Assembly (NCBI RefSeq): GCF_000003605.2
Contig: NW_003127383.1
Span: 10,558-36,079, forward strand
Source: Saccoglossus kowalevskii
Lineage: Eukaryota; Hemichordata; Enteropneusta; Harrimaniidae
DNA length: 25,522 bases
Direction of reading: 5' to 3'
The first letter of the stretch is position 1. Each line of letters opens with the position of its first letter. The position numbers were made by a program, and so were the translations under genes. The notes under the pieces were generated by a model that ran no database searches, had not been told where the DNA came from, and saw nothing but the letters and a program-made list of their open reading frames with translations. Below, piece after piece: positions 3,002 to 25,225 of the stretch.

Positions 3002-3063
3002 TGGCGTCAATTTCCATGACGAGAGAACAGTAAACCTATTAGGCGTGTTTGTCTCCGACGTCA
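3002..3063 (+). promoter_or_regulatory. SECIS element, type 2, of the GPx mRNA
   Basis: The core has ATGA at 3016-3019 and the partner GA at 3057-3058, forming the non-Watson-Crick quartet. Helix II pairs 3021-3031 with 3045-3055 (GAGA with TCTC, then AA/TT and CA/TG), with one mismatch and one bulge. The unpaired AAA at 3032-3034 lies 12 nt after ATGA, the expected spacing. The apical loop holds a mini-helix CCT (3035-3037) / AGG (3041-3043), which defines type 2. A short outer helix TGGCG (3002-3006) / CGTCA (3059-3063) is possible. It lies about 100 nt after the stop and before the poly(A) signal, which is where SBP2 would bind to recode UGA. Confidence 0.85.
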
Positions 3064-3138
3064 TCGCAAAGTTGGGAAATGTTTCATTCAATTCCATTTG
3101 CTAACAGAGTGATGTAATTGTTGCCATGTGTTCATCGC

Positions 3139-6249: not shown

Positions 6250-6483
6250 TCATTGGAAAGCAACGATAACAGTAAAATACCCAAACGAAAGTAAAGTTAA
6301 GGTACAATAATAACCATATTGCAAAGCTGAGCTGCAAGACTTTGCTGGCATCGCACTACCCATAGGCTGCCCGCTGGCCGTCGACACTTTCAACACAGAG
6401 AGCAGTATATCGGTGATGATGCAGGGCGCCCTCGTATTTATTAAATCACTCAGCCTGATCAGGGTTTCTCGACAGACAGCATC
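6250..6483 (-). CDS. GFR-like last exon: C-terminus and GPI signal
   Basis: The acceptor is TTTTTATACAG|GAT, phase 0, and the stop TGA lies at 6252-6250. It encodes 77 residues: an amphipathic DAVCRETLIRLSDLI segment, a second Cys 17 residues after the first, then AMPAKSCSSA and a tail LTLLSFGYFTVIVAFQ with no charged residue. This layout (small residues, short spacer, terminal hydrophobic stretch, no cytoplasmic tail) is that of a GPI-attachment signal rather than a transmembrane helix. Confidence 0.85.
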   Translation of the reverse strand, partial: DAVCRETLIRLSDLINTRAPCIITDILLSVLKVSTASGQPMGSAMPAKSCSSALQYGYYCTLTLLSFGYFTVIVAFQ

Positions 6484-9400
6484 CTGTATAAAAACATCAT
6501 TACGTTGTTTATATATGCCATATTTAATTGCAACATAATAATGTACACACGTGTATTCCATATACTCTAGCATGGAACCGGACAATCTTCAAAATCAGTA
6601 TTTGTTCGAATTGAGTCGTGACGTAACGGGGGACCTCTGATTCTGATGTTGTAAATAAAATGTATATTGACGGGTAAGTTTCATCGCACAATCCGTAAAA
6701 TAGCGGTCAAAACTTATTCATGTCACAGTGAAAGTCGTCGTCATATACGGAGTAGTATTCAGATATCGACTGAATATATTGACATCGGTAAATGACGGAC
6801 ATTTCTTTATATTGATACCTCAGAATAATTGCATTAATGTAACTAATATCATTTAGATCGCATGTCTAAATAAACAAAAAATGTAGTTGTTTTTTGTCCT
6901 CGAAGACCTGAATGCGATGGAAAGCTTCGAATAGCGTAATCGTATACCATCGACAATCTGTATTTAGTGCTTTGAGAGAGAAGGGAAATAAAAAGGTAAT
7001 ATTAATAGAGAAGTGTGCTTACAGTTTCATTTGAAGCCGTCTCTCCATTAACCGACAACATCAATACACCCGGTTCGTGACCATTTAACTTCAGTTTGCA
7101 AGACTTATTCTACAAATAAATTGTTAATTGTAGATTTCTAGTAAAAATAGGATCAGCTATTGGTGTATTATATATTCATGAAAATAATATGTTCGTCTAA
7201 TTGGATAGTATTTTCGAATAAATATACCCCTACAAATACACCATGGTAATATATACCAGTTAGTAGACTTGTGATAAACTAATCGAAGTACCTCTCATTC
7301 ACTGAGCATCAATCATTCCCATCACATCACATACAAAATATACACATGTGTCTATTATGAGAAACTTGGATTTGTCTAACTAAAGCAGTGTACGTCCTTG
7401 GTTGATCGGAATGTTTTACAACGAACAAACGTTAACTACCGTATAAAATTCAATCAAATTCAAAGATTTATATTCGTATACAATGTGCGCCTTCGGCTCG
7501 CCGTCCGTTGGGCGCTGGACAATATCCCCAGAGCCTTCAAAAAACACTCAGACACGACTCAGCTAATTTAACCTACAGTTATGATACATCTCATCAGCTA
7601 CTGAGTGAGTGAGTGAGTGAGTAGGTGATTTATATTGACGTAGTATAATTGGTGGCAGGTCACAATACATGAACTCAAGTCAGTACTTACCCTCGTGCCG
7701 TTCACGTGAATTGTGTCGATAAGAAACTGAAGTTTTTGTTGCACTGTGCTTCCCAAGAACGTTTCGTGAACGTAGTCGCTCATCATTTTTTCTTCCTGTA
7801 GACTGTAACCAATATTTATACATGGGACTCCTACTAGAAAAAGAAAACATGAAGTTATATTTAAATAACAGATAAAGCGTCCATGGATGGCGAAGTCGTA
7901 GGCCAGATCGAATAATGTTCATAACGTTCACCCACACTTGCACCAAGCGACTTTAATTGTTTTTAGGGAATAAGGAAACACAAAATGGCGGATTGAATGA
8001 CGTGCTCGGACAAATAACTAACTCACCGTTATGTGTAAGACAAAGCCCAAAATTCGAGTGTTCAGTGATAGAGCATATGACTGTTCCCTCGAAACAGACA
8101 CAATTACCATGCAGTGGATCCCTGAAAACCTCGTTATGCGCTGAGAATAACAAACGGGAGACAGTTTTTGTTTACAATATTTGTGTATAGTCGTTGTGTT
8201 GACGATTGATTTGTTAACAATACAAAACGGCGCACACTAATAATAAATATGCATATAAAGTAGTACAGTGAGGACACGATCATATCATCCCAGACATGTA
8301 AGTACATAGATACATTTAGTTCATTAATGGATTGACGTATTAAATTGTATATGTGTGAGTAGTGTTTATTGTATAGGAAATATGGTCCACGTAATCAGCT
8401 AACAGCAAATATGCGCCATTTTGTCAGTTTAACGGGGAAAATGTGCAACATAATCAACTAAGCGAGAAATATATGCTTTATTGTAAGCTAAACAGGAAAT
8501 ATGGGTCATATTATCAGTTTGCAATGAAATGTGTGTCATATTGTTAATTTAGCAGGACATTTGTGCCATACTACAGGTTTAGCAGCAAACTATTTCATTA
8601 TATATACAGTACATATTTTGGTATTAAATGTGCATCTTTTATAGTGACAAATTCTTATCAGTTTTATATCAGTTTATGTGGAAAGTAGTTGTGTATTCAC
8701 AGTATTTATTTACTAATGGGAATCCACTAATAGGGTGAAACGATGTAGTCTGGTGATACTGTTGATTTCCCTAAAGCTTTCAAATAAATTTATTTGACTG
8801 GATATTATCTTGCTGAAATATCTGGTAGTCTGGTAATTTACACGACATAATATATTAAAACCAATTTAGTAGCGATGAAAAAACTGAATATTATAACTTA
8901 CAAACGTCTTTTAATATACTAAAATTGAAAAACAAACACTTTTTTGTAAATTCATTCCTCATTTCTGGTAGGATATAAACTCAACTGTATGAATGTAAGC
9001 TTTCTTTCTGAAATCATATCGGAAACGTAAGCCACTATCTTCACGTATACAAAAATAGTTGGCCACATACCATACGATTTGCCATTATATATACAATATG
9101 CTGAGACATTTACGCAGATGAGTTGGTCACAATTTACCAAGCTGCCGTATCGCGAACAGCGGCATACTGTCGAACATCCGGTAACTTTGAGTGGAATCTA
9201 AAAAAATAATGAGCATAGTTTTTCACAATATGTAAGCTTTGCTGAATCTGATTTGAAATGTAAATTACAAAATGTCACAGTATACTGATCTGAAGTGAGA
9301 TACGTACCCGGACATCATTGTCTGGGGGAACAGAAATGACGGCTTCACCATTGAATAACGATACCTGACAGTCAGCAACTGAAATCAGATATACTTTATC

Positions 9401-12400
9401 AGATATACGCTACGGAAAAGTTGTCAGCAACATAGAAGATAACCCATTAAGTATCAAATGGAATGTAAATGGGCTGAAAATAACAACACATTTTGCGACA
9501 GAAAGTTGATAGCACAGTCCTTCCACTGTGGCATGTAGGCAAAATACAACAAACTCAAACGCTGGTTTGTCTTTGTTCCATTTATGTCGCATAGGAGCGT
9601 GTACCTGTGATATACCAGTTAACAACCTCATAGTTGTACCTAGACTGTCGTCAGTTCTCGGGTCTAATAAAGAGTCACTTATTTTCAAACGCCGTATGCG
9701 TGTTAACGAAACGCCTAAGGCATTTCAAGCGAGGGCCATTATACTTCCTGTTTATTGGTGACCAGTTTCGCACATGATTGGTTAATCGGTGTATGACGTA
9801 GTTTGAGTGACGAGTCTCAGCAGGAACGTCACCGGGCAATTTCGACGTAATGCCACATGAAGGCGTTTTAGTCTCTCCGGTCTTAGGCCCTCGCTTTAAA
9901 AATGCCTTGGACATTTCGTTGAAATGCCCACGGCGTTTGAAAATAAGTGACTCTTTAATGGGCCCGAGAACTGTCGACAGTCTAAGTTATACCATAAGGT
10001 CACTCGTGTCACACCAACTAATGACACTATATCGTTCAATCCATCTTTGTTAGTTTTGTTAGCAGTGATTAATCCACATACTATCCCGTACCACTACTTG
10101 ACGTATTGTTTTTTTGTATTACTTTAAAGGGCGGTAGTCGTCACGCCGCGTCCTGTTCGATATGGGACTCATAGCGACGTATACAACACATGTATAATAC
10201 ATTGTTTATTTACACGAAATTCGAACACGCGCTACGCGACGACTACCGCGCTTTAATACTCGCATCAACCCGTTTCCCGCATCACTGATTACATTTTCAC
10301 TTTAACTACAAAACACAGCTTATACTCACATCAGGGCTAGACCTCAACAAAATAAAAATGCTAACTTTTATTGTGAACCGTTCAGTGTTGGAATTAACGT
10401 AATACGCTTAGGGAAACCTTATTGTCATTCTCAACGAACCCCTATTTCAAAACTCGTCACTTGTGCATCTTATTTAAGACTGCACGTTCATATTAAGGAA
10501 TTTCTTTGACGCCTGTAAAACAACTATCGGCGACCTTGTCAACGCGGAATGGGGTGGCTTGCTTAATTAACAGAGTTAAAATTCAATCTCGTCTTATACT
10601 CGTCCTCAGTCTTATAGCCACCTATGATGCAATTCAAACTGATTTAAAAAGCGACTATTGAAAGACACGTCGTTTTGATCTCACTAAATGACACCTACAG
10701 ACTCAACCTCAACTTTACTTAGTGGCCATTCCCTTATTCGGTTATGCTATGACGTAGTACTAGCCCACAGTGAATAGAAACTATGCATTTAGTACATAGC
10801 GGTGGCAAATGCAATACACTGAATAAGTATTATAATAAATATAACGAACCTCGTCCATTATATCCTCCAGTAGGTCCCACGGCAATTGAATCTATTCCCA
10901 TAGTCGTAACGTCTAAAAAACAATTACGATTAACTGTGTGTTATCAACAAACGCCCAAGCTTTGCCAAATAACGAACACAGTATATATATGATGTGTTGT
11001 TGTATGCAAAATACAATAGCTCCCGGCGAAACACAATGTTTATACGCAAGCAATCGCATTGGTAAAGTAAAACTATCATATTCCATTTTTTTCCTAATTC
11101 AAGAGATTTTAACACAAAACAAATGACTGACGAAACAACAGACAACTACACTACAATACATTGGTTAAATCAGTGGGAAATACATATATGTACCTTTACG
11201 CATACCGACAAAATATGATATTAGGTGTTTCGAAAAAAGTGAGCATCTGTTATTCAACATGTTGCACCCGTCATACATCAATCTGAGTCACAATCAAATA
11301 ATTTATGATTCAAGGAGTGGGCCATATCGGAAAAATAATGTAATGTATTATGATGCCATATTTGTAACATGTGCTGCGAAGTGGACGTTGACGTACCTGG
11401 CTCAGAGCTGTAAGTTTCATCTTCGAATTCACCATCTATTATATAAAAACATTAAAATCATGATATGATAATACGTAATATGTGCTATTATAATACAGGC
11501 TAGTGTTGTCCCGTGAATTCTACTGCTATAGGAGTGACAATATCACGCGTTATTGCGGTGTTCCAAATGACAATATCACGTGATTGGTGTTATTTTATAT
11601 TTTCACTCTGTGCCTGGTACTACTATTACGATTGTCACGGGAAAAGTTGGGCACTGAAAATAAACTAACTTCATTCGAGACGGAACATATTAACATATTG
11701 TTCCCAAATATGTGCAAGTATTTCAAATGTTTTTTTTCCCATAACAACTATGTAATTCCATATAATTCATGACGTGTCGATGTAAGTTAGCTATTGAAAA
11801 GCTATTCCTTGTGGCTCTTACTTCCTGGGGGGGGGCGATAACAATAGAGGCCGAGGAACGTTGATTACCATGGAAACCGAATAGTAGCAACATATGATGG
11901 CCAACAAGGAGTTTTGAGATTTAGCCATTTGGCATTCTCACTCACAATAATGTCAACATTTCTATCAATTCCCGATTCCCAAATTGCCGTCTAACGCGAT
12001 GTAATTCCATTTGCGCATCCGTAACCTACCTAGGAACGGGCGAGGGTATGACAAAAATATAAAAAGTAAAAAAAGCAACGGTATACATGCCACTCGGAAG
12101 AAGTAAGCGAAATATTTTAAACAGTTTTCTTTTAAAAGATAGCGACGGGAGTATGGGTAGGTACAAACAAGGGCAGATAGAAAAACTATTTAAGAAAGCT
12201 GAGAAACGTGGATTTCCAATTGAAAAAGATGATTTGGGTAATTATAAAATCAGTAATTCTGCGTGTTGTTGTGCCCTGCAAGACAGCAAAGTGTGCGTGT
12301 GTTTGTGAGATATTCGTCTGGAGCGAATATTAATTAGGAGTCGCATTTAACTTGTGAACTAGGGTTAGGGCTTTTACTGTTAGCACATTTAAGTGTATTT

Positions 12401-15400
12401 TTCTCGAGTTGGACGTTGAACTAACACTCATGCAGAATTGTATTGAGTTGTATCTGTTACTTTGTTGTATTTATCGAGCAACACACACTTTTCTCATTCC
12501 AATATTTATTGTTGTGTTTACACTGCATGTACAATGTCGGACATTGTGTGTAACGCTATTTGTACTGTGACTTGGTAGTAGTAATTATTATTGTGAAAGC
12601 TAGTGCTAGTTCTTTTAAATGTGTGTATTACTGATTCATGCAACTGTAGTGTTTATTATTATAATACTGTTATCTTAATTTAGGTTATTGTAGGTGTGAC
12701 ATATTCATTGATCAAGCATGTATGAACAGCATTTCAAATCTTGAATGCGTCTGTAACATATCAACTTGAAATGCTATTAAATTCCAAGACGTGTTTACAA
12801 TTTCAACAACGGCAATGTACATTCCGAGAGTCCTTTGAGGTCGGCCTTCTTAATTCAAGGCTTATTGTATGATTAACGCTTTACATGATCCGTTACCTGT
12901 ATAGAAAGTGAAAGTTGGCAAATCTAGTATCGTTTTACCTATTCAAATAATCAGAAGTTTTTCGCAATAGCTCTTCATTGGTATGTTTATGATGATAAAC
13001 TTACCTGTCACCACCTTGTGTTCCAGAGTTGTTGCCTTCACTGTGGATGCTATGTCCGATGAGTAAAATGCTTGCGCTGCAGTAGCTGCAAATAATACAA
13101 TAAACGTTGAAAGAAAACACCCATTTGTACATCATTAAAACAAAAGCCGTATGAACACAAAATATCTAAAACTAACAAACATGAATAATTATAACAAAAC
13201 ATGGAAGAATGATCCACATATATACAACCAAGAGGTCATGTATTGTATTTTTTTAAATGAGATCATATTCAGCACCACATGTGGCCTAATGGTTTATGTG
13301 AGAAACCTGGGATAAACATCGAACAAAGAACATGTCATATTTAACATATTTACCAATAATGAATGTTAGAACTGATGTTCGTTACAATACCCTCAGTTTA
13401 AAAGTTTGTACAAAAGAAAACAATGTATCTTTAAAACATCTCCATACAGTCACGAGCATTGCACATGAGCTAGAAACTATCATAGAAACTGTGGTCAATT
13501 GGCGATGGTAAATATTCAATGTCGCATTCAAAGCACAAAGTATGATGAAGCAGAAACATTACTATATCTAGAAATGATATATTTTGAATCAGCTTAAACT
13601 TCTGTCGCCGTTTTTCTGGTGTTTTTTTTGTATATCTGTAATCTACAACTTAAAGGGGCAATTTTCAGAACAATGTTCGGAAAAAATATCATTGAGACCA
13701 ATCATTACTTGTCCGGAGAGATCTTGATTTGGTTACCATGGAGAGAGCTGTTGTCATTGTCAGATAACTCAGTTGCGAACGAATTTGTCTTGCGCTCCAT
13801 ACAAAAACTATCGATTAGATTGTGTTGATTCTTATCCATTAGACTAATCAAGTGATAAAAAGTTGCTTACACACGCATTGATTGTGGAACAGTAACTTCT
13901 GAAAATCAGAGCATTCTGGTAGACCACTAATGCAGTTGCAAATTCTCGCAATTACTGTGCTGAGTATGCCTACGTAGGCGGTCCTACATTTTCCGAGTGA
14001 GCCACTGCAGCCCGATGGCGATGATCTGTCGGGAGTGCATTGTTGTAGAAACTGTTGGTATTTAGACCTGATCCAATAAGAAAGACAGAAGGGTGAATAT
14101 AACCCAATGCAAATCACAGATAGACTACTTACTTCACTAAAACAATGCCATAATCAGCGAATATGATATAAACATAATAAAGGCATATAATTGTGGTGTT
14201 ACGGATTTAGAATGACAGGCCCACATTTCTAGAAATACTGCTGCAAATGAGTGGCTTTGAGAATACAATGTTTAATTTTATTTTGAAGTTGCTTTCCCGT
14301 AAAATGTTGTATCTATTGAGTGCACACTTGTAGTTTTCGAATGTACAATACTTTTGTGCGACACAAGAGTATTGTATTGTATGGCAGCCATTGTTACTAA
14401 TAAGAGTCTATGACATGCTATTGGTCAAAAGTTACGCGTCTACGTGAAATTGAATCTTTGGTGCGCATCACCATAACTGGATATTACTGTTGAAATCAAG
14501 TGTCATCGAGAAATACTTTCTAATATAATAAGTGTGTTTTAAATTATTCAAACGCCATTAATTGACGTCCAACTGCGATCTATTAGTTTCATCAAAATTT
14601 TCAAATCACTTAATTAAATTTATTACAATTCGTTTAGTTTTCACTTTAAACTTGTTAAGGTCAATTTGTTTCATATTTGTGTATATTTATAAATAAGGTT
14701 GTTGTTTATTTTGCTACACTATCCATATCGTTAAAATCCATTAAAAGACAGTCATTGATGCTTACCCGCACTTTGCGTCGTCCGTACATCTTACGATCAA
14801 GTCTAGGCAATCCGGCGTTGGTGTCTCCATGTGAGAACAAACAGGATTCAGGCCGTTGTGGAGGGCAGTACACACATCATCTCCCTCTTTGCAGTGGCAG
14901 AAAACTAAGGAATGCGTCAGAATGTGTCTTGATGATTCAAAGAAAGAGCTCTTTGCAACAAGACACTCATCTGTTTTACACGTGTCGTCTACCAGTGGCG
15001 AACACTTTTGTATATAGTTTGCTAGAGTGTTTCGACAGATCGTGTCAGAGTTGCATTCAAATAATGCGTGGTCACAAGTGCTTTCTGTGAAAAGATATTT
15101 CAAACATTGATTTTCGCATTTAAAATTATTTCAATTTGCAAATTAGTTATCTGATGAACTAGACAACCAAATTTTGATGAAACCCAAAAATCTTACAAAC
15201 AGTTCAAGATATTTATTTGGTCTGTTCGTCTTAAATAAGCATATATTTTGTTGAAGTACGAGACACTTCGCGATGGGTGTCTTTTTACGAAAATATTTGT
15301 TCACCATTTTATAAACTGGCTTGGCAATTCCCACCTCTGACGTCACACTATTTAGTCTCGAAACAAAAGAAACCGTTCGATCGAAATGAGCTGCGTTTTT

Positions 15401-16134
15401 GAAAAGCGAGTTTCCGAAAGAAAAACGTCGATGTAAAAAACGACTGATTTTCGTCATTTCACCTATGATCTTCTGATAATGTCATTAATGGTATCAGGCC
15501 ACCCCCCCCAAACAATTGAAATATTTTGGGCAACTGTTTAATGTGATGTTTAATTCTGATGTTGGTATTTTTGTTATGTTGTATGGTATATAATACAGTA
15601 TCTAGAATACACGACAACGATGTTTTAATAAATTGTGACGCAAGTTGTAATAATTTGGCTGACATAATTTGTAATTTAAATTCTGATCTCTGTTTGGCTT
15701 CAAATAACCCATTCATATGTTTCAAGTTCTCAGTGCATAAGTTGACTGTAGAATTATTTATTGCAAATTGATTGGGTCAATTTTTCGGAAAGTGTAATGT
15801 AATACAAAATTATACAAAATACAGAATGCTCTTTTACAAACACGACCCAGTTGTGTGGCACCCCACAATCAATATAGTTGTACAACACTTGCGTTACACT
15901 AATAATGATTAGGCATATCAAGCTAAAATTGTATAGTGAGCTATTCCCCTTAATTCGCCTTAAAAAGTCAAATATATAAAGGTTTTCAAAGTTGAACACG
16001 ATAAATTATATCCTAGCACAATCGCTTCCTGGTATCGCTTTCGTTGAGTTAGGGCTGCTTCACTATAACGCCTGTTTTCTCTTCAGAATATAAAAATATG
16101 CCAATAAGTGCGATCTCCGTTAAGATAATGCAGT

Positions 16135-16187
<53 letters not shown>

Positions 16188-19100
16188 CCCGAATCTTAGG
16201 TTTGTTAATTCGATCATGGTCCACTCACGGTTATAATTGAAATATGATAAACTCTACCTCAACGAGTTAATACGTATGAATCTTCAATCAATTGAATTCG
16301 GAAATATTCCACAGATTCAAATATCAAACCTGAAACTGATCTCCGAGTGCTAAATCGGGGCAGATTTCCGGCGCAGGAGGGGGCCAGTTTCCCACGGGGC
16401 TATTGTCAGGGGCAGTTGTCCAACGGGGGCAGTTGTCCTAAAACCATCATTAATTCAGTCCAGCGGTTATTTTTTGAGACGTCCGGGAACCAAAATTTGA
16501 GATGTAAATCACTTCGGTAATATTAGCCAAGGGGTGAGGGACAGCATTTCAAACCCACATTTAATATGTAGGGTATTAACGTATTTTAAGATCAGTCTGT
16601 TAATTCAGAGATACTATGAGATAAATTATGACAGAGTACTAGTAACAAGATCTGAGAAATGTGTGATTTAATTACACGCGTGTAATTAGCTTAATTTACA
16701 TATTACTTAATCGTGTTAGCAATGAGGTGATCTACACTCACGGGAATTTATATTGAATGCACCAATACTGAAAATTGTATAGTATAGGAAGATTAAATTA
16801 CTATAGTGCATAATGAATTTACCGTGGCTTCACATTGTGCTGTTTGTTTTTCATATCGGGGTCGTGAGGCATGTTGATATCGATTGTGTTCTGAAATAAC
16901 CTTTTTGATGAAATTTGTTTTCTTAAGCAGTGTGTAGTAATTTTCTTAGTGGTTATTCCCTTCTTCGGTTAAACTAGGACGTAGTCCTACGGAAAACATG
17001 TCAACAAGTGAATGAAATCAATTTAGGATACGATCAAGTAAATTACCCAACTACTTTACTCGCGGCGGCAAATGCAATACACTGAATAAGTAAATATGAC
17101 GAACCTCCTCCATTATATCCTCCAGTAGGTCCCACGGCAATTGGATCTATTCCTATAGTCGTAACGTCTAAAAAACAATTAACTGTTTTTTACACTTTTT
17201 ATGTCAACAAACACACATGCAAGCTTTATTAATTAACAAACACAGTATATGCTTTTAATGAGTGATTTGTTTCCAGTGAACCAAAGATTTTTATCATCAC
17301 ATCACACAAATGAGGATGATTGATAAATAAAAACTAACATTATATCTTATCGATATTCAAATTTATCATAATGCAAGAGAATTTAAAACTAAACAAAAGA
17401 CTGACAAAACAACAGACAACTACACTACAACACACTGGTTAAATTCGAAATACATATATGGATTACATATGAGCACCTGTTATACAACATGTTGCACCTA
17501 TCATATATCGATACAATAGCACAAACCAAATTAATGCCGCAAGCAACATCAGCGGGCTTTAAGCGGAAGCAGGCTGTTGTACGATGTGAGGTCAAGTGAT
17601 AGCTGGTTATCATGATGCTAAAAACCAAATTTCAGATCAATGTGTTCCAAATGTCATTCAGGTAACGGTGGTTTAAACAAAGCACGCAAAAAAAAAAACG
17701 GCGGAAGCAGAATCACAAAATCAAAACGATAATATAAAGGAATAGAACCCAGTGACATTGCTAAAATCAGTCGGAAATACATATATGGACATTTACTTAT
17801 ACAGGCGAGATATGGTGTCAGGTGTTTCAAAAACTGAGCACGTTTATTCGACATGTTGCAAATACATGATTTATGTTAGCAGACATTTGATATATATGCC
17901 TTCTGAAGTCATCAGAGGTGATCAGATGCCGCGAAGTGAATGTTGACTTACCTGGTTCAGAGATATATGTTAAAGTTTCGTCTTCTAATTCACCATCTAT
18001 TTATATAAAAACATTATATTCATTATTATATGATAATATGTAATATATGCTGTTATCGATCGATATTATTCAAATAACCAGATGTGTCGGGAATATGCCA
18101 GAATTGTCTGGATATTTAGAAAAATATATATATAAAGTACGATTACCATTCGCGATACAATATATACTGAACAAATGTTTTCTAGGACTTTGTGTGCTTG
18201 AGAATATAGATTGTTTTTTTGTCTAGCAGTCGGCTAAACAAATTGTTCGTCAGTAAGATAAGAGTGGGTAGCACGACTGTAGTGCATACAATGCAGTTCA
18301 CGATTTCAATTCACTCACAGTGTAAACATTTGAATGTGTGTACAGAAAACTAATTCCATTTTCGTAGTATCATTCAAGTGTGAAAGTCTAAACAAACAAT
18401 GGTGTTATATGAGGTCGATGCTGTTATTGTGAGTGATATGTACTCAATATTTGTGTTAAATGCTGTGGCCTTTGTGTTAGAATACAGTAAGACTGGTTTT
18501 AAGAAATAATTTTGAACGGACCCCAAACCTATTCTGAACGATTAGTTTTATCGAGCAGCTTAGAAGTCAATTATTGGCAAAACTTTATTGACGGATGGCA
18601 AAACTGCAATTTTTAGATTGCCGTTTTCTCTGGCGTAAGCAAGTCTGATGTAGTCAATTTCATATTTTGACGGACGCCAAAACTGCAATTCTTGGCAGAT
18701 TGCCGTTTTCTCTGCGTAAGCAAGTCTGATGTAGTCAATTTCACATCATTTGTATCAAGTTTGAACGTCGAGATAAGTATTTTGGCCTGGACTGTTGATC
18801 AGTATATCTCTATCATAGAAACATTCGGACTGCATTAGGTAATATAATGCGTTAAGTTAGGCATAGTGTTTGGTGTCACAATGTTGTGTTGGTATCGCAA
18901 TGCTGTGTTGGTATCGCAATGTTATGTGGGCGTGTTTATTGTTATCTTTTCTGAATCATGACACTGACCAAGACATTGCTCAATATGTTTTGACGAGTCA
19001 ATTGCGTATGCAACATTGTTGCAATGAAATATATCACATTAGGGTGTGTAGTAATGTTTTTGCACTTGTCTGAGTGAATGGAGCTTTAATGAACAGAGAA

Positions 19101-22100
19101 TAAGAAATATTATTCATTAGACGAAGGTATTCAATCTGATTGGTTAGCTACCTTGGTTTAAGTGACTTATAATACTAGTATGATATAACCATGTAAGTTG
19201 ATTGTAATTTGAAAGGTGTTTGACACGTTTTTTTCTTAATAGAATAATAAAACTGAGAGAAAAATATACGGGGATATCGTACTATTGCTTTGTATATTAT
19301 AGAACCAGTCGCACATATTTTTACCTATGCAATGTTCATATTATCGTGTATTTTTGTTAATGTTTTTTTATATTTAGATATTGGATTTTTGATAATAAAT
19401 GTATCGCGATCATTCAGTAATTGATTCATCAAAAATAAGGAACATTTTAACCTTTCTGTAATCCCCAATCACAAGAAAAGTATAAGTTTCAATTCCGATA
19501 TAATTTCTAATATCCAAAGTAGGATTACAACATCGTCCGCCTGCACGGTTCTGTTCGGTTCGGACATTCCTGCCTCTCCGACCCCGTACGGTAACCCTAT
19601 TCATAACCGTGTATGATGAAAGTTTACCGACCAATAAAAACTTTGTTGCAATTGACTGTCAAAAATCACTTGCAATTTTGCATTTCTGACGTCTTTATGA
19701 GCATTTAGGTCACTCTTCTTCCCAGAGATCCTCGGCCTTGTATCTCTGCCACACATACCCCCATTTTGTGGTAAGACACCACAAGACTTTTACTACGCAT
19801 ACGCGTGTTGATTTAGTTCTACTGGTAAACAAGTTTTAAAATATTGTATCGATAGCTGACAATGATTCTTCCGTCAATGGTGAAAAATAGTTATAATTTA
19901 CAAAGGAAACAAACTTCATCGCGGAATAGCGGTTACTAAGGTGTTACTCGGTTCATCAAACTGTAATATACCGTTCTATCGATTGCCAGGCGAAAAAATG
20001 TAAACAAAAGAGAGCACTTCGTAGTATTAACGGCTAAATCGTCCTACTGCCACACCGTTTGTGCTACGGAAAGTAATCAAAATGAGTTTCTAGCTTTGAA
20101 AATAGCCATAATCCACAAACAACGTCTACGCTTTCGTTGGGTTAAACAATCGAAAACCTGCATGACAATATTTGTTGGCCGTCTTTGAAAGTAGTGCCAC
20201 TGTTACCATCAACCAATCAACGACGAGCATAAGATCGCGTGGTGGCAGAGATATATTTGTAGAAATAGAACTCTGCGTGGGAGATTGCTCTGAAGTATAA
20301 CGCCTGCTCCTCCATAATAGTCAACAGTGGTGACAACACTGTTACCACGCTCGACGGTCGCAAGGCCGCTAAAGCATAATAACATAATGAATATATGTGA
20401 GTTGTATGATGTCTCGATATTGTCGCTGTATTGCCTCGACATCCAAACCAACACATTTGTGTTGATGAAAAAAGCAATCTGATTGGCTGTTAATAAACTG
20501 ATTCTAAACTGTGAGGGCATTGTCACATACACATGGTCATAATGAAATACTTCAAGGTGATAGTGGAGTGATTTGCCGGAACATTCACCTAGACAATTCA
20601 CGATGGATTTTCTGTATAATGCTAATTGATATTGTTTTAACATTGATTTATTACAAAACGGGGGTTTTGTGGTTGAAAACAAATAGTGTATGCACGACCT
20701 GCTTTGAACCGTTCGATCATAAATTTAGTTCGAACCAAAAACTGCAATGCGCATAAATGTAAGCACGACTCACTACTCATGCTAGCCTGTTGTATAGTGA
20801 GATTACTGTCGTTGTCCGTTGGAACATTACTTTTTTCTGGCAGTAGTAAATTTAAACTATTCTTTCTTGCTGTCAATATAACAGTTTATACACCGTACAA
20901 CAGGTTTTACAATGCCAAACAATCATATCTGTAGTGACGATGACGCTGAACACACAATATTTTATTTTGAAACAACTGACAGAAAATGATCATTCAACAA
21001 TAGAAATCAATCACTACTCGCCTAAACATGGATTCTCGTGGATTCTCTTCAGAAGTCGTTGACATTTCTTGGAGCCATGCATACCAGGGTAACAACGGCA
21101 CCTACCCAATACCGTTGTGTTCAAATGACCCCTAGCATCCATACATGTGTCACCTATGCTCGACTCAGCCAGACAAACATTTTTTCTAAAAGGACAACTA
21201 TTCATGTAATACGTATACACTGCTTTACAATAGTCGTTTTCTAAACACAACGTCTTGGCAGTGTTGCAGTTGACTACGTCATCATACGCATTAGATATGG
21301 GAGTAAGAGTACCATCGGTATTTGATTCTGAAAAATATAACGCAAACACACATACGCGTTATACTATACACCTGTTTACACACGCATATCTGGTGGAATC
21401 TCACCTGTTAATTATTATGGTTTATTGCCGAACTGGTAACTATGCCCACAGAGTACTCAGTTGTGTTGAATATACACACTCTTCTTGTTTTTAAATCGAT
21501 CAAACTAGCCCATTTTTTTTTACTCGAGCTATAAGCTTACAGTAAAAATCACTACAGTTCGACAATTGGACAGTGACACTAAACCAAAATAAAGTGGAGT
21601 CTAGACATACACCCTCATGATTCAAGTCACAGACAATGTGGTTGATGATTATTATAAAAATGGTTGACGTTGATTACTCTAAATGCAAGAGATCACACTG
21701 GTCGTCGCCTGGCGTTGATAAATTGGCGCCGCGTTTCACGACTGATCCATATTGATGAAACATTATACTGGATTTGTCTGCAAATCGCCGAACAAATCAA
21801 ATTGTTGCGCGCAGCTCTTGTTGAACTGTCGAGCTGAATCGATTCAATGTGTTCAAATTATACTCATATCTTTTATCTATTGACTTATCTTGTATACGTG
21901 AACGCAGTGAGATAGAAATGTGCGACGGGTGTGTTAAAGCAGGGGTGTCGTCGCCTGCGCATGCGTCAGATGGCCATAGCGTGTCATTGTTTACAAACAA
22001 GCGTCTACCCACGAGCCTTTGCGTTTTTAGCGTGTGTTGTTATCATCGCTTGGGACTCAATTCCGCGCGTGAGCGGGTGACGACCCTCTCGTTTTAAAAA

Positions 22101-25100
22101 TAATTGTCATACGCTATTTCGAATTTTTTTCTTTGCAACGTTCTAAACTAACCACAGCTACTATTTCAATTGAATAAAACAGGATGCTTATAAACCAACA
22201 ACTGATATCGAAACTATGAATGACAGAATAGTGAACATAAATGTAGTCCATGGAGGCCAAATCCAGATAAGACACAATAAACAAGGGGATGTGTTTCACG
22301 TATTCCACGCACCACATGGAGTGGGTGGGGCGTGTTTGGTTTGGTTTTTTTTTTTTTTTTTTTTTTTGGTTTTTTTTTATGTGTTGCTTGATTGTTTAGA
22401 TGATTGACTGACTGATTAATGCCGGAATATATTAAACTGAACAGGTTTAATTTATTGCTGATTGCAGGCGATAATAATGTAAATTTTACATACTTGTAAA
22501 GGGCGTTACTTGTCCGGATAGCTTGGTCCCTGAAGGAGTGTAACTTACGTGCTCCGTCGACGTAGAAACATCGTGTGTGCTTGTCACTGTCAATAGAATT
22601 GAAAGCAAAATCTCTATAATCTGCAGGCCGTTTCTGACGCACAACCATACCAAAGAAAAACCAAAAATAGGAATAAATAAAAATGCCTCCAATCAATATG
22701 CATTCTCTAAATTGTTGATCCTCCAGAATATCGTGATTCCTAAACCTTCTCTCACCTAACCTCTAAAACACTATATCTACAGTGGGGGAGAGAAAATATT
22801 CATTTATGTTCAAGTTGAATGTCTTCCTACCAATACTAGTGAGTGGTTTTCTCAGTGGGTGGCGTTCTTCTTATGTGTGAAATCAAAGGGTGGGGACAAA
22901 CACAGATAAAAGTAACTAAATGAACGTAATATTTCTTACCTGTGTTATCAATACATGAATCGTCGAACAACATACGAAACAGATGATTACACTCAGCGAA
23001 TTCTAGTGTATGACTGTCACAGTAGCATGATTGAAATAATGGCTGAGCTGCAATCGCCGTGGCCACAGCTTGGCAACCTGTGGGATCTGTCAATTGGCAT
23101 GCTGGCACTGTGACCAAATTTGAAACTCTGATAAGTATGATGTGGAGCTATCAGTTCTGATCAAAAATACACATCGTGTCATTATAGTTAATGAAAACAG
23201 TTTCCTACAGTGAATGCATGGACTACATGGACTGTATACACGGGACAAATTGAACCCGTAATGCACATTACACATTGTTTGTACTGCTACCGAATGTTTC
23301 TAAGCATGGAACACTACGATAATGACTTTCTGCTTTCGACATACAGAAATTCTTTCGTTTTTTGGGAGAAAAAAACCTCGGAAATTCATTACAGAATGTA
23401 TTTCCTGCGAACCCATAAATAATTTTAATAATTACCGATCACACAAGAATATTACAGAAAAAAAGATTATTTGCTATACTCTCTATATGTTTGCCTTTTA
23501 TTTCTCTTGAATTATGATTGAAAGAAGCTGAATGAAATAAAACAATGTGTTCAACAAATCATATATGAACAATAACTTAAATAAATATGATTTTACTTAA
23601 AAATACTGTATTTTTCTGCATAAAAACGAAAGCATTTCACAATGTCGAACGGAAAGTCTTTATCACAGTGTTATGGCTTGAAATGACCTTTCACAATACA
23701 CAGGTGCATTGTCAGGAAAGTATAACTAGTCTCTTATTTAAAATCTATGTCCGTGCAGATTAAATTACTATTCGCAAATATAACAGGGAATGGTGCAGCC
23801 TCTATTTTATGGTTACAGAATGTGCATGATAGAAAAGCAAATAGCTTCCACGTCATTGAAGCGTTCTTGGTTTGGTCCGATTCACAGAAATGACAGAAGG
23901 GATGTCGTTTCTGAAACAGTACTCGCTGTATTGTCTTTCATTAATTTCAAAAATATACACATCTCAGACAGTTGTATTTGATATGTGATGCGGAAATCGT
24001 GACTGAATAGTGTTGTTATCAGTGGCCTCGATCATTCACTCTTACCGTTCAAATAAAGGGTAAAATGCAGCTTTACCCTGATTTCATGACAGTGTTCGAT
24101 TTGAATGTAATACTATAAGGTCTATATTCCTTCAATATTTTTCAAAACAAGTTAATTATATTATTTCTAAAAAAACATGTAAAATAATCCAAAACGAGTG
24201 AAACAGTTCATCATATCAAACGGCACGGACAGGTTAGTCAAGCCACTACCTGAACATGTTATTGACAATCTAAGATATTAAAATAAGAACGTTGCAGCAT
24301 CAATGTTTGTTCTAAATGCACCCGGTCGAATAATAGAATGCACAAAATACATATAAATTTGTTAATATGTGTACGTTGTTATGGAAACTATATGCAATTT
24401 GTTCGTACCTGAGTTGTTGCAGTGTACCTTGAAGTAATTGAGTACCATGCTGCATGAATCATCCTTGACACATTCTTCCCAGGCAGTGAGGCAGTCCATT
24501 TGACACGTGATGGTCACGATAAGATATAAGAATAACACGCATACTAAAAAAGAAGGAAGTCATAGTTACAGTTGCATTTGCGGCTGGAAGGAATATTTGA
24601 AATTTGTCAATATCGTTGACGGACTGTCAGGTGTGAGAATTGTAAATATTATTTCGTATATAAAAACATAGTATGAGTTTACATTCGTGATGTATTAACA
24701 AATGCTGAGTTCAGATATATAGCCTTGCTGTTTAATACAGTGCAGATAAATAGAGTTGTTGACATAAAGTAAAATGTTAATGCTATTGATGTGCGGGTAA
24801 TTTAAGGATGCATTGGTGTGTTTAACAATTAACATCGCATATGATAGGGCTTTTAGAAGCATATACCACGCAATTATTATTTCGATTCTGAGAAATGCAA
24901 TTCTATTTAAAGTTGGATTGTTTCTAATTGAGTAACGTGAGATTCCAGAAATGTTCAAATATAAAAGCTGATATATAACCATATATATCATATTATTTCA
25001 ATGGTGGAATACACACACAAATAGAAAATTATAAATTATAAGCAAATGCGTTCAATTGTTACTATATTGGAATATCGTTTTCAAAATTGAGGCAATATTT

Positions 25101-25225
25101 AAAAAAGTATCTTTCGGCTCTTTGAATAGTACTACAGCAATTTACTTGCATGATTACAAATATTACGTTTTTAAATTGACAAATGTGTGAAACCTACCGA
25201 TTAATCTGTTTTCTGACGAAGCCAT
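6250..25225 (-). CDS. GFR alpha-like (GDNF family receptor-like) GPI-anchored protein, 16 core exons
   Basis: The spliced product has about 703 residues. Order: signal peptide (1 to about 22, hydrophobic VCVLFLYLIVTIT); four GDNF/GAS1 domains, each with exactly ten Cys (27-106, 131-211, 216-295, 305-383); a linker rich in Ser, Thr, Gly and acidic residues (385-445); a second Cys-rich region (446 to about 626) with CxC motifs at 481/483 and 525/527; and a last exon ending in a hydrophobic tail (about 684-703) after a KSCSSA-type small-residue site, as in GPI-anchored proteins. Known GFR alpha proteins bind GDNF-family ligands and signal through RET; vertebrate members have two or three such domains. 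The ligand here is inferred only from family membership. All sixteen junctions agree in phase. The gene is convergent with GPx. The main uncertainty is which small linker exons are used and whether undetected exons exist. Confidence 0.85.
7023..7109 (-). CDS. GFR-like exon 15
   Basis: 87 bp, phase 0 on both sides. The acceptor is ATTTGTAG|AAT and the donor ACT|GTAAGC. It encodes NKSCKLKLNGHEPGVLMLSV plus NGETASNET. Its C-x-n-LNG pattern recalls CQVSLFNGEAVISV of exon 11, hinting at an internal repeat. Confidence 0.75.
7691..7833 (-). CDS. GFR-like exon 14
   Basis: 143 bp, phase 1 in and phase 0 out. The acceptor TTTTTCTAG|TAG|GAG is a tandem NAGNAG site; the donor AGG|GTAAGT is strong. It encodes VGVPCINIGYSLQEEKMMSD followed by YVHETFLGSTVQQKLQFLID and TIHVNGTR. 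A shorter start at 7795 was rejected because it breaks phase with the previous exon. Confidence 0.78.
7834..8026. other. Intron between exons 13 and 14
   Basis: A short intron (193 bp) with GT-AG ends, containing the polypyrimidine tract TTTTCTTTTTCTAG on the minus strand. Nothing else is seen. Confidence 0.6.
8027..8140 (-). CDS. GFR-like exon 13 (Cys-rich, CxC)
   Basis: 114 bp, phase 1 on both sides. The acceptor is TTATTCTCAG|CGC and the donor AACG|GTGAGT. It encodes AHNEVFRDPLHGNCVCFEGT plus VICSITEHSNFGLCLTHN. The spacing C-x-C-x6-C with Gly in between resembles a VWC-like half-module, but it is not a full match to that family. Confidence 0.75.
8373..8590. repeat. Degenerate tandem repeat of about 39 bp within an intron
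   Basis: Units of the type AGGAAATATGGGTCATATTA followed by TCAGTTTA repeat five or six times (near 8376, 8405, 8437, 8470, 8510 and 8550), with many substitutions and small indels. They lie in the 930-bp intron between exons 12 and 13. Confidence 0.6.
9071..9197 (-). CDS. GFR-like exon 12 (Cys-rich, CxC)
   Basis: 127 bp, phase 0 in and phase 1 out. The acceptor is TTTTTTTAG|ATT and the donor TATG|GTATGT. It encodes IPLKVTGCSTVCRCSRYGSL then VNCDQLICVNVSAYCIYNGK and SY, with Cys at residues 477, 481, 483, 492, 497 and 504. Possible earlier donors at 9138 and 9114 (GTAAAT) would remove Cys residues and break the phase with exon 13. Confidence 0.75.
9308..9378 (-). CDS. GFR-like exon 11
   Basis: 71 bp, phase 1 in and phase 0 out. 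The acceptor is CTGATTTCAG|TTG and the donor CGG|GTACGT. It encodes VADCQVSLFNGEAVISVPPD plus NDVR, the start of the second Cys-rich region. Confidence 0.75.
9633..9993. mobile_element. Inverted-repeat (foldback/MITE-like) element
   Basis: The left arm 9633-9737 and right arm 9886-9993 are imperfect reverse complements over more than 100 bp. They share TAGACTGTCG, CAGTTCTCGGG, AAAGAGTCACTTATTTTCAA and GGCATTT...GCGAGGGCC. The spacer is about 148 bp and has no transposase. No clear target-site duplication was found, so the family is not assigned. It lies in the intron between exons 10 and 11. Confidence 0.75.
10128..10252. mobile_element. 125-bp TTAA-flanked MITE-like element
   Basis: Both ends carry TTAA (10124-10127 and 10253-10256). 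Both then read inward as AGSGCGGTAGTCGTC, where S is G on the left and C on the right. The inverted similarity extends to about 35-40 bp (CGCG then TGTTCGA). TTAA target duplication is characteristic of piggyBac-type transposition, but the terminal bases do not start CCC, so this assignment is tentative. It is too short to code. Confidence 0.7.
10850..10912 (-). CDS. GFR-like exon 10 (linker)
   Basis: 63 bp, phase 1 on both sides. The acceptor is TTTTTTAG|ACG and the donor CGAG|GTTCGT (weak). It encodes DVTTMGIDSIAVGPTGGYNG plus R. It has a near-identical second copy at 17105-17167, with 3 differences in 63 bases, all changing an amino acid. Confidence 0.68.
11397..11435 (-). CDS. GFR-like exon 9 (acidic linker)
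   Basis: 39 bp, phase 1 on both sides. The acceptor is TATAATAG|ATG and the donor CCAG|GTACGT. It encodes DGEFEDETYSSEP. It is duplicated at 17952-17996, where the copy is two codons longer. Confidence 0.68.
11436..13004. other. Intron between exons 8 and 9
   Basis: No gene is supported. It contains two close copies of GACAATATCACG near 11536 and 11569, a G-run at about 11827-11835, and a Lys-rich plus-strand open frame (12087-12308) of unknown meaning. Confidence 0.45.
13005..13085 (-). CDS. GFR-like exon 8 (Ser/Thr linker)
   Basis: 81 bp, phase 1 on both sides. The acceptor is TATTTGCAG|CTA and the donor ACAG|GTAAGT. It encodes STAAQAFYSSDIASTVKATT then LEHKVVT. A second CAG acceptor nine bases in (after 13077) would drop three residues without a frame change. 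Confidence 0.65.
13871..14067 (-). CDS. GFR-like exon 7 (end of GDNF/GAS1 domain 4)
   Basis: 197 bp, phase 2 in and phase 1 out. The acceptor is TTGGATCAG|GTC and the donor GTGT|GTAAGC. It carries Cys 329, 339, 346, 362, 364, 371 and 383, including the family's C-x-C (ICNC) and the final PECSDFQ...NQC. Confidence 0.85.
14346..14374. repeat. Short hairpin in an intron
   Basis: CAATACTTTTGTG (14346-14358) and CACAAGAGTATTG (14362-14374) are inverted repeats with 12 of 13 positions pairing and a three-base loop. No function is assigned. Confidence 0.5.
14766..15084 (-). CDS. GFR-like exon 6 (GDNF/GAS1 domain 3 and start of domain 4)
   Basis: 319 bp, phase 1 in and phase 2 out. The acceptor is ATCTTTTCACAG|AAA and the donor GCGG|GTAAGC. 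Domain 3 has Cys 216, 223, 229, 240, 248, 253, 275, 277, 284 and 295, the complete ten-cysteine pattern including FCHC and NPVC. Domain 4 starts with Cys 305, 312 and 318. This is the clearest single piece of evidence for the family. Confidence 0.9.
16139..16184. repeat. (AT)23 microsatellite
   Basis: 46 bases of uninterrupted AT dinucleotides, followed by GGCCCC. Confidence 0.98.
16357..16440. repeat. G-rich degenerate tandem repeat (GGGGCAGTTGTCC-type)
   Basis: Five units start with GGGG(G)C and end in TTTCC or TTGTCC, at about 16357, 16379, 16396, 16408 and 16424. Spacing is 12-22 bp. The stretch is far more GC-rich than its surroundings. Confidence 0.65.
16669..16688. repeat. Perfect 20-bp palindrome
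   Basis: TAATTACACGCGTGTAATTA is its own reverse complement. It could be a binding site for a dimeric factor or chance in AT-rich DNA. Confidence 0.7.
17105..17167 (-). CDS. Exon 10' (duplicate of exon 10), possible alternative linker exon
   Basis: 63 bp, phase 1 on both sides. The acceptor is TTTTTTAG|ACG and the donor GGAG|GTTCGT. It encodes DVTTIGIDPIAVGPTGGYNG plus G. Against exon 10 it has Met to Ile, Ser to Pro and Arg to Gly. It could be spliced between exons 5 and 6, or be unused. Confidence 0.45.
17952..17996 (-). CDS. Exon 9' (duplicate of exon 9), possible alternative linker exon
   Basis: 45 bp, phase 1 on both sides. The acceptor is TAAATAG|ATG and the donor CCAG|GTAAGT, a better donor than that of exon 9. 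It encodes DGELEDETLTYISEP. With exon 10' it would add 36 residues between domains 2 and 3 without a frame change. Confidence 0.45.
18586..18743. repeat. Tandem duplication, units of about 77 and 81 bp
   Basis: 18586-18662 and 18663-18743 share TTGACGGA, AAAACTGCAATT, GATTGCCGTTTTCTCT and GCGTAAGCAAGTCTGATGTA. They differ by small indels. Confidence 0.9.
18872..18928. repeat. Three tandem 19-bp units
   Basis: GGTATCGCAATGCTGTGTT and variants occur at 18872-18890, 18891-18909 and 18910-18928. Confidence 0.88.
21022..21327 (-). CDS. GFR-like exon 5 (GDNF/GAS1 domain 2)
   Basis: 306 bp, phase 1 on both sides. The acceptor is TATTTTTCAG|AAT and the donor TTAG|GCGAGT, a GC donor; the alternative GT at 21017-21016 would end in phase 2 and break the link to exon 6. 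It encodes a short acidic/Ser lead and then a complete ten-Cys domain (131-211) with GRCRC and NPCL. An N-glycosylation sequon N-T-T lies at residues 180-182. Confidence 0.88.
21956..21966. promoter_or_regulatory. NRF1-like site TGCGCATGCGT
   Basis: It closely matches the palindromic NRF1 core GCGCATGCGC and sits in a locally GC-rich stretch inside an AT-rich intron. It is a candidate intronic promoter or enhancer element; no transcript is visible from it. Confidence 0.25.
22549..22620 (-). CDS. Possible optional GFR-like exon (72 bp)
   Basis: It is open in phase 1 on both sides, with a strong donor CAC|GTAAGT and a weaker acceptor GGCCTGCAG|ATT. It would encode DYRDFAFNSIDSDKHTRCFY plus VDGA between domains 1 and 2 without disturbing the frame. 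The poor polypyrimidine tract and the odd extra Cys make this uncertain. A stronger-looking acceptor at 22587/22586 gives a frame-breaking 38-bp exon. Confidence 0.3.
22940..23107 (-). CDS. GFR-like exon 3 (second half of domain 1)
   Basis: 168 bp, phase 1 on both sides. The acceptor is TTGGTCACAG|TGC and the donor ACAG|GTAAGA. It carries Cys 58, 66, 82, 84, 94 and 106, with the C-x-C (SCYC) hallmark. Confidence 0.88.
23108..24408. other. Intron between exons 2 and 3
   Basis: About 1.3 kb, AT-rich. No gene, repeat or RNA recognised. Confidence 0.5.
24409..24543 (-). CDS. GFR-like exon 2 (signal-peptide core and first half of domain 1)
   Basis: 135 bp, phase 1 on both sides. The acceptor is CTTTTTTAG|TAT and the donor TCAG|GTACGA. 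It encodes VCVLFLYLIVTIT, then CQMDCLTAWEECVKDDSC and the CNNS sequon. Domain Cys are 27, 34, 40 and 51. Confidence 0.87.
24544..25197. other. Intron 1 of the GFR-like gene
   Basis: 654 bp, AT-rich, with GT-AG ends. Nothing else recognised. Confidence 0.55.
25198..25225 (-). CDS. GFR-like exon 1 (start codon)
   Basis: 28 bp: MASSENRLI plus one base, then donor ATCG|GTAGGT. The ATG has A at -3 and G at +4. Joined to exon 2 it gives a conventional signal peptide, with a polar/basic n-region and then a 13-residue hydrophobic core. Confidence 0.78.

Follow-up and report, generated by a model that had tools for sequence, protein, structure and literature searches.

The region analyzed in this work (referred to below as the window) is a stretch of 25,522 nucleotides from the hemichordate Saccoglossus kowalevskii. 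On the minus strand of the window, a gene of 15 exons running from 25225 to 6250 was modelled from the sequence only, and these exons form a single open frame encoding a protein of 703 aa, whose translation contains hydrophobic stretches at both the N- and the C-terminus. The whole protein matched the Pfam GDNF/GAS1 family (6.5e-25) in four stretches, and when four pieces of it were scanned separately, each of them was found to contain one GDNF domain with a score above the cut-off (29, 27.8, 34.8, and 45.1 bits for PF02351; cut-off 22), which is the domain content of the GFRL/GFRalpha receptors. The best relative of this protein among solved structures is GFRalpha1 (1.6e-16). In the alignments, the second GDNF domain corresponds to the vertebrate D1 domain, and the third and fourth domains to D2-D3. 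Since domains 2-4 are aligned in this manner with D1-D3, the designations D0-D3, as employed for Drosophila Gfrl (PMC3527400), also suit this receptor. The main features of the locus are as follows.

6250..25225, minus strand: GFRL-type receptor gene (15-exon model with a continuous frame; Pfam GDNF domains; GFRalpha structures as relatives)
21022..21327, minus strand: D1 exon, ending at the GC donor TAG/GCGAGT
15085..21021, minus strand: D1-D2 intron of 5.9 kb that holds the copy (exon model)
14766..15084, minus strand: D2 exon, extending into the start of D3 (exon model, domain alignments)
10714..11491, minus strand: block with exons 9 and 10 (self-BLAST, alignment)
11397..11435, minus strand: exon 9, 39 nt, phase 1-1
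10850..10912, minus strand: exon 10, 63 nt, phase 1-1
16941..18056, minus strand: duplicated block with exons 9' and 10' (self-BLAST, alignment)
17952..17996, minus strand: exon 9', 45 nt, phase 1-1
17105..17167, minus strand: exon 10', 63 nt, phase 1-1

When the window was compared with itself by BLAST, two main collinear matches were observed, one between 10799-11190 and 17062-17460 (E 7e-57) and the other between 11158-11491 and 17755-18056 (E 8e-31). Two short matches were also detected, of which that between 10714-10762 and 16941-16989 extends the block. The block around exons 9-10 measures approximately 0.78 kb and that of the copy 1.12 kb, a discrepancy that is mostly due to indels in the intron separating the two exons, and their alignment consists of two well-conserved exon regions with an indel-rich intron between them. 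The copy is in the same orientation as exons 9-10 and it lies inside the D1-D2 intron, with three model exons (15084-14766, 14067-13871, and 13085-13005) present between the two blocks. The term copy is used here only as a label for the pair in the D1-D2 intron, as either pair may be the older one. This locus thus contains a local, DNA-level duplication of two whole linker exons together with introns within one receptor gene. The preliminary description of this DNA had claimed that a block with exons 9 and 10 recurs in another intron, and the two main matches bear this out. The junction positions that it gave (21022, 17996-17952, 17167-17105, and 15084) likewise match our exon model. Its placement of the copy between domains 2 and 3 also stands, but the numbering requires revision, as the gene has four GDNF domains and the joint in question is the D1-D2 joint of vertebrates. 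Ungapped repeat finding on the window returned 0 families and missed the duplication, which was recovered by gapped BLAST.

To place the duplicated DNA in its genomic context, the species' own genome (572,110,611 bases in 4830 contigs) was searched; the counts of matches are lower bounds, as very common words were skipped. Apart from itself, the DNA of the copy had matches to two segments of the other copy and to a single 35-nt stretch, which lies on a different contig, and the linker peptide was found in only three places, all within the receptor gene (these counts again being lower bounds). An origin from an abundant dispersed repeat, for which many genomic copies are expected, therefore found no support in this search. 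At the ends of the duplicated block, no repeat could be recognised. In a tblastn search of the window with the 703-aa protein, the only matches beyond the model exons were to 10' (1e-6), to 9' (0.5) and others with E values of 0.66 or higher. Searches of bacterial and archaeal contigs with the protein of the D2 exon (15 pattern matches, none confirmed) and of viral contigs with the exact exon 10 pattern (0 matches) are uninformative on animal relatives. A search of the D1-D2 intron for paired RNA elements yielded 13 inverted pairs, 11 of them in one AT run and the other two distant and imperfect; one of the latter places an arm immediately upstream of 9' (18015-18034). A separate inverted repeat (9625-9737 / 9886-10000), with arms of about 114 nt that are 82% alike, is located in the intron after exon 10 and looks like a small transposon remnant.

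Intragenic exon duplications are a known class, of which this one is a member. A survey of tandem exon duplications describes unannotated exon copies in introns, some of them with apparent tissue-specific expression (PMC9013439). The pairs 9/9' and 10/10' resemble these tandem or mutually exclusive exons in being homologous, phase-matched copies within one gene, but in the present case two exons have moved as a single block and the copies are not adjacent, three model exons lying between them; for these reasons an either/or choice of exons is not implied. For dmrt1 of Solea senegalensis, an intragenic duplication of more than 10 kb that includes part of exon I has been reported, and a SINE is proposed to be responsible for it (PMC7605655). 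The likeness to our case lies in the duplication of several exons and intron DNA inside a gene, whereas the size, the partial exon and the SINE set it apart from a block whose ends contain no recognised repeat. Drosophila Gfrl, as far as the consulted part of its description extends, is a GPI-anchored protein with four GFR-like domains and a long post-D3 region, its transcripts Ab and Bb are without exon 12 (the content of which is not stated there), and it failed to mediate phosphorylation of RET in the assays reported (PMC3527400). It is similar to the present gene in being an invertebrate four-domain receptor, but exon duplication is not mentioned in that part. No report of this duplication was found in the titles and abstract openings of the open-licence papers that were searched.

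As each of the exons 9' and 10' is of phase 1-1, the reading frame would survive the inclusion of both, either, or neither of them, and the two together add 36 residues with no stop. Their splice sites are intact, and none of the marks of a dead copy that were looked for (stops, frameshifts, or lost splice sites) is present in either exon, a result with which an undamaged neutral copy is still compatible. The donor of 9' (CAG/GTAAGT) agrees with the consensus in 9 of 9 bases versus 8 of 9 for the exon 9 donor (CAG/GTACGT), and its computed U1 pairing (-12.1, compared to -7.9 for exon 9) is level with that of exon 8 as the lowest in energy among the model exons. The donor of 10' is weak (dG -5.2). 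Exon 10 likewise has a weak donor, and the first six intron bases of the two are identical. Exons 10 and 10' differ at three positions, all of which change the amino acid (M/I, S/P, and R/G), and exons 9 and 9' differ more, by five or six substitutions, depending upon the alignment, and by an in-frame 6-nt indel. The phase, the better donor of 9', the replacement nature of all three changes in exon 10' and the size of the in-frame insertion were all correctly given in the preliminary description, which made no mention of the changes between 9 and 9'.

In the absence of the insert, the last D1 cysteine and the first D2 cysteine are separated by 4 residues (LEST), whereas with the insert, which is cysteine-free, the distance becomes 40 residues, in accordance with the change in domain spacing that had been claimed earlier. 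In the alignments of the whole protein, the stretch from the matched end of D1 to that of D2 comprises 5, 6, and 3 residues here versus 43, 39, and 37 in the chains 6q2n, 4ux8, and 7aml, and hence the GFRalpha1 chains are 33-38 residues longer at this joint. For the D1-D3 segment without the insert, the best structure alignments begin at D2 (best 9.8e-17), whereas with the insert the top three GFRalpha1 chains were aligned unbroken from D1 through the linker to D3 (best 4.3e-19). The local scores against two GFRalpha1 chain segments rose upon addition of the real insert from 51.8 to 72.4 bits and from 56.9 to 73.4 bits; exons 9+10 as the insert gave 72.8 bits with both segments, and 9' or 10' singly led to little gain. 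However, when random inserts of 11 lengths were scored against two GFRalpha1 chain segments, with 20 inserts per length, their mean scores climbed from 51.8/56.9 bits at length 0 to a peak of 68.3/71.2 bits at length 36 and were falling by length 50, and the best random inserts of 36 residues (76.9 and 80.4 bits) exceeded the real one. The sequence of the insert was thus rejected as the cause of the gain, which random inserts of about 30-42 residues reproduce. A common LED motif hinted that the insert and the vertebrate D1-D2 linker might be homologous, but a shuffle test (P 0.10-0.86 in 12 comparisons) led us to reject this as well. Hence, the insert is vertebrate-like in its length and not in its sequence, and as agreement in length can arise by chance, it provides a lead rather than a proof of function.

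One explanation of this agreement is that 9' and 10' are part of every transcript as the ordinary D1-D2 linker, the post-D3 block perhaps being the newer of the two. With these exons, the 4-residue joint would attain the length seen in vertebrate GFRalpha1, and the evidence from intactness considered below applies equally to this possibility. We nonetheless regard it as unlikely, since shuffled sequences match vertebrate linkers as closely as the insert does, so that nothing points to an inherited linker, the donor of 10' is weak (although this is common to exon 10), and a 4-residue joint may be normal among invertebrate relatives. The explanation that we tentatively favor is that 9' and 10' constitute a retained, in-frame linker cassette that is included in some transcripts, where it would lengthen the D1-D2 joint. 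Through the local duplication of about 0.8-1.1 kb shown above, the D1-D2 intron now contains a second, identically oriented pair of linker exons, and according to this proposal the pair in this intron would have been kept as a usable in-frame cassette that enters some transcripts. Its inclusion is computed to extend the joint from 4 to 40 residues by means of a cysteine-free segment, and the longer joint may let the N-terminal D0-D1 part move freely against D2-D3 or take another position, as vertebrate structures suggest. In structural studies, the D1-D2 linker of human GFRalpha1 is described as extended and mobile, with D3 central, and the linker region as less exposed once the heparin pentasaccharide fondaparinux is bound (PMC13228243, a preprint); D1 is reported to be dispensable for the ternary complex with RET and to be differently placed in the GFRalpha1 and GFRAL complexes (PMC8266384), and in another study it could not be resolved in three out of four complexes (PMC6760901). 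A more specific proposal, in which splicing would switch a hinge and one gene would supply both a compact form with a 4-residue joint (by skipping) and a form with a 40-residue linker and a mobile D0-D1 (by inclusion), appears improbable to us at present. Such a hinge would have converged on the extended linker of vertebrates, using exons that otherwise function after D3.

Vertebrate GFRalpha1 exists as isoforms a and b, which differ in the presence or absence of a 5-residue linker segment encoded by exon 5. We know of no indication that this segment is a copy of another linker. The variation resembles that proposed here in being within the D1-D2 linker (chain 6q2n has the residues DVFQQ and 4ux8 is without them), but it involves 5 residues versus 36 in our case and the sequences are unrelated. 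In the portions of the literature searched, including PMC9030868, PMC5572274, and PMC9648972, no description of this exon 5 variant was encountered.

The aligned copies differ at 8 of 102 positions in the exons versus 112 of 582 in the intron (Fisher P 0.004), and with a second alignment scoring the intron value was 145 of 649 (P 0.0003 against the same exon count). This contrast was rejected as proof that the copy is used, since constraint on one copy alone suffices to account for it: when only one copy is constrained, for which the expectation is half of the intron divergence, 9.6-11.2% of exon positions should differ, and the observed 8/102 is not significantly lower (P 0.34 and 0.18). Codon counts gave 5 nonsynonymous and 4 synonymous changes (pN 0.065, pS 0.163), and the resulting ratio near 0.4 could come from one free and one constrained copy and thus fails to separate a retained copy from a dead one. 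It is accordingly quite possible that 9' and 10' are a neutral intronic relic, skipped in splicing, whose exons are intact by chance, and it also speaks for this possibility that the case was chosen for looking intact.

The likelihood of such chance survival was estimated by simulating neutral decay, at one half of the intron distance (K80 0.223) and of the intron indels (26 gaps per 582 aligned columns), in 20,000 runs per starting pair. The free copy was still usable, i.e., both exons retained all four splice dinucleotides and the frame and had no stop, in 4.6% of the runs starting from 9+10 and in 3.9% of those from 9'+10'. Across 16 rate settings this fraction ranged from 1.9% to 34%, and the rates, being derived from alignable intron only, may understate the divergence. 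The 34% obtained at lower rates is in accord with a dead copy, whereas the 4-5% at the intron-derived rates argues against it, as does the perfect consensus of the 9' donor, which that of exon 9 does not possess. Furthermore, exons 10 and 10' have 3 differences, whereas each of 428 overlapping intron-only windows of 63 columns has at least 7. For windows of 39 columns, 16 of 527 intron-only windows have 3 or fewer differences, and due to the indel in exon 9/9' this test yields no value for exon 9. Overall, the balance leans toward retention of 9' and 10', but not strongly. Of the two outcomes foreseen in the preliminary description, a route to receptor isoforms or a dead copy, neither is settled: the simulation inclines toward retention, and the divergence of exons versus intron does not by itself tell them apart. 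If the cassette is spliced in, it would represent a clean case in which one duplication has equipped a new inter-domain joint with a frame-neutral linker cassette of two exons, and a natural gene that varies the length of its D1-D2 linker would allow the effect of this linker to be tested in a further member of the receptor family; a dead copy would simply be an ordinary relic of duplication.

It is also conceivable that the conserved stretches owe their preservation to something else, for example to a regulatory element, of DNA or RNA, that lies around exon 10 and is common to both introns. Identity between the copies extends beyond exon 10/10', with 26 of 26 bases being the same shortly inside the downstream intron. 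However, the differences are just modestly lower near the exon (9/72 within 20 nt versus 61/304 beyond 100 nt), scanning the window for Rfam families and tRNAs gave no match at threshold, and no element was identified; we consider this explanation very improbable.

In our exon model, every product that crosses the D1-D2 joint, with or without the insert, would rely on the GC donor of the D1 exon. Reading through this donor leads to a TAG after two codons, and use of the next GT, located four bases past it, with the same acceptor results in an immediate in-frame TGA in the D2 exon. An AATAAA is present at 20966, behind this donor (20961-21022, minus strand), and a truncated D0-D1 product formed by intronic polyadenylation behind the D1 exon is conceivable from this arrangement, but the D1-D2 intron contains 15 AATAAA/ATTAAA hexamers in all.

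Some other features of the window may also be noted. The post-D3 region of the receptor (8027-9197, minus strand) is weakly RECK-like, with all of its scores below cut-off (EGF1_RECK 26 bits, cut-off 27; VWC 17.2; FnI_RECK 14.3). On the plus strand, a gene at 1695-2914, which we take to be glutathione-peroxidase-like, is interrupted at 1902-1904 by an in-frame TGA that probably encodes selenocysteine, the surrounding residues being VVPTATYUG. The exon containing this TGA apparently closes at a GC donor (1906-1907), and a SECIS_1-like element is located at 3009-3072 on the same strand, with a score (22.8 bits, E 0.2) that is below the Rfam cut-off of 35. Positions 1-635 of the window consist of a tandem repeat with a 36-bp unit present in 17.6 copies with 88% matches.
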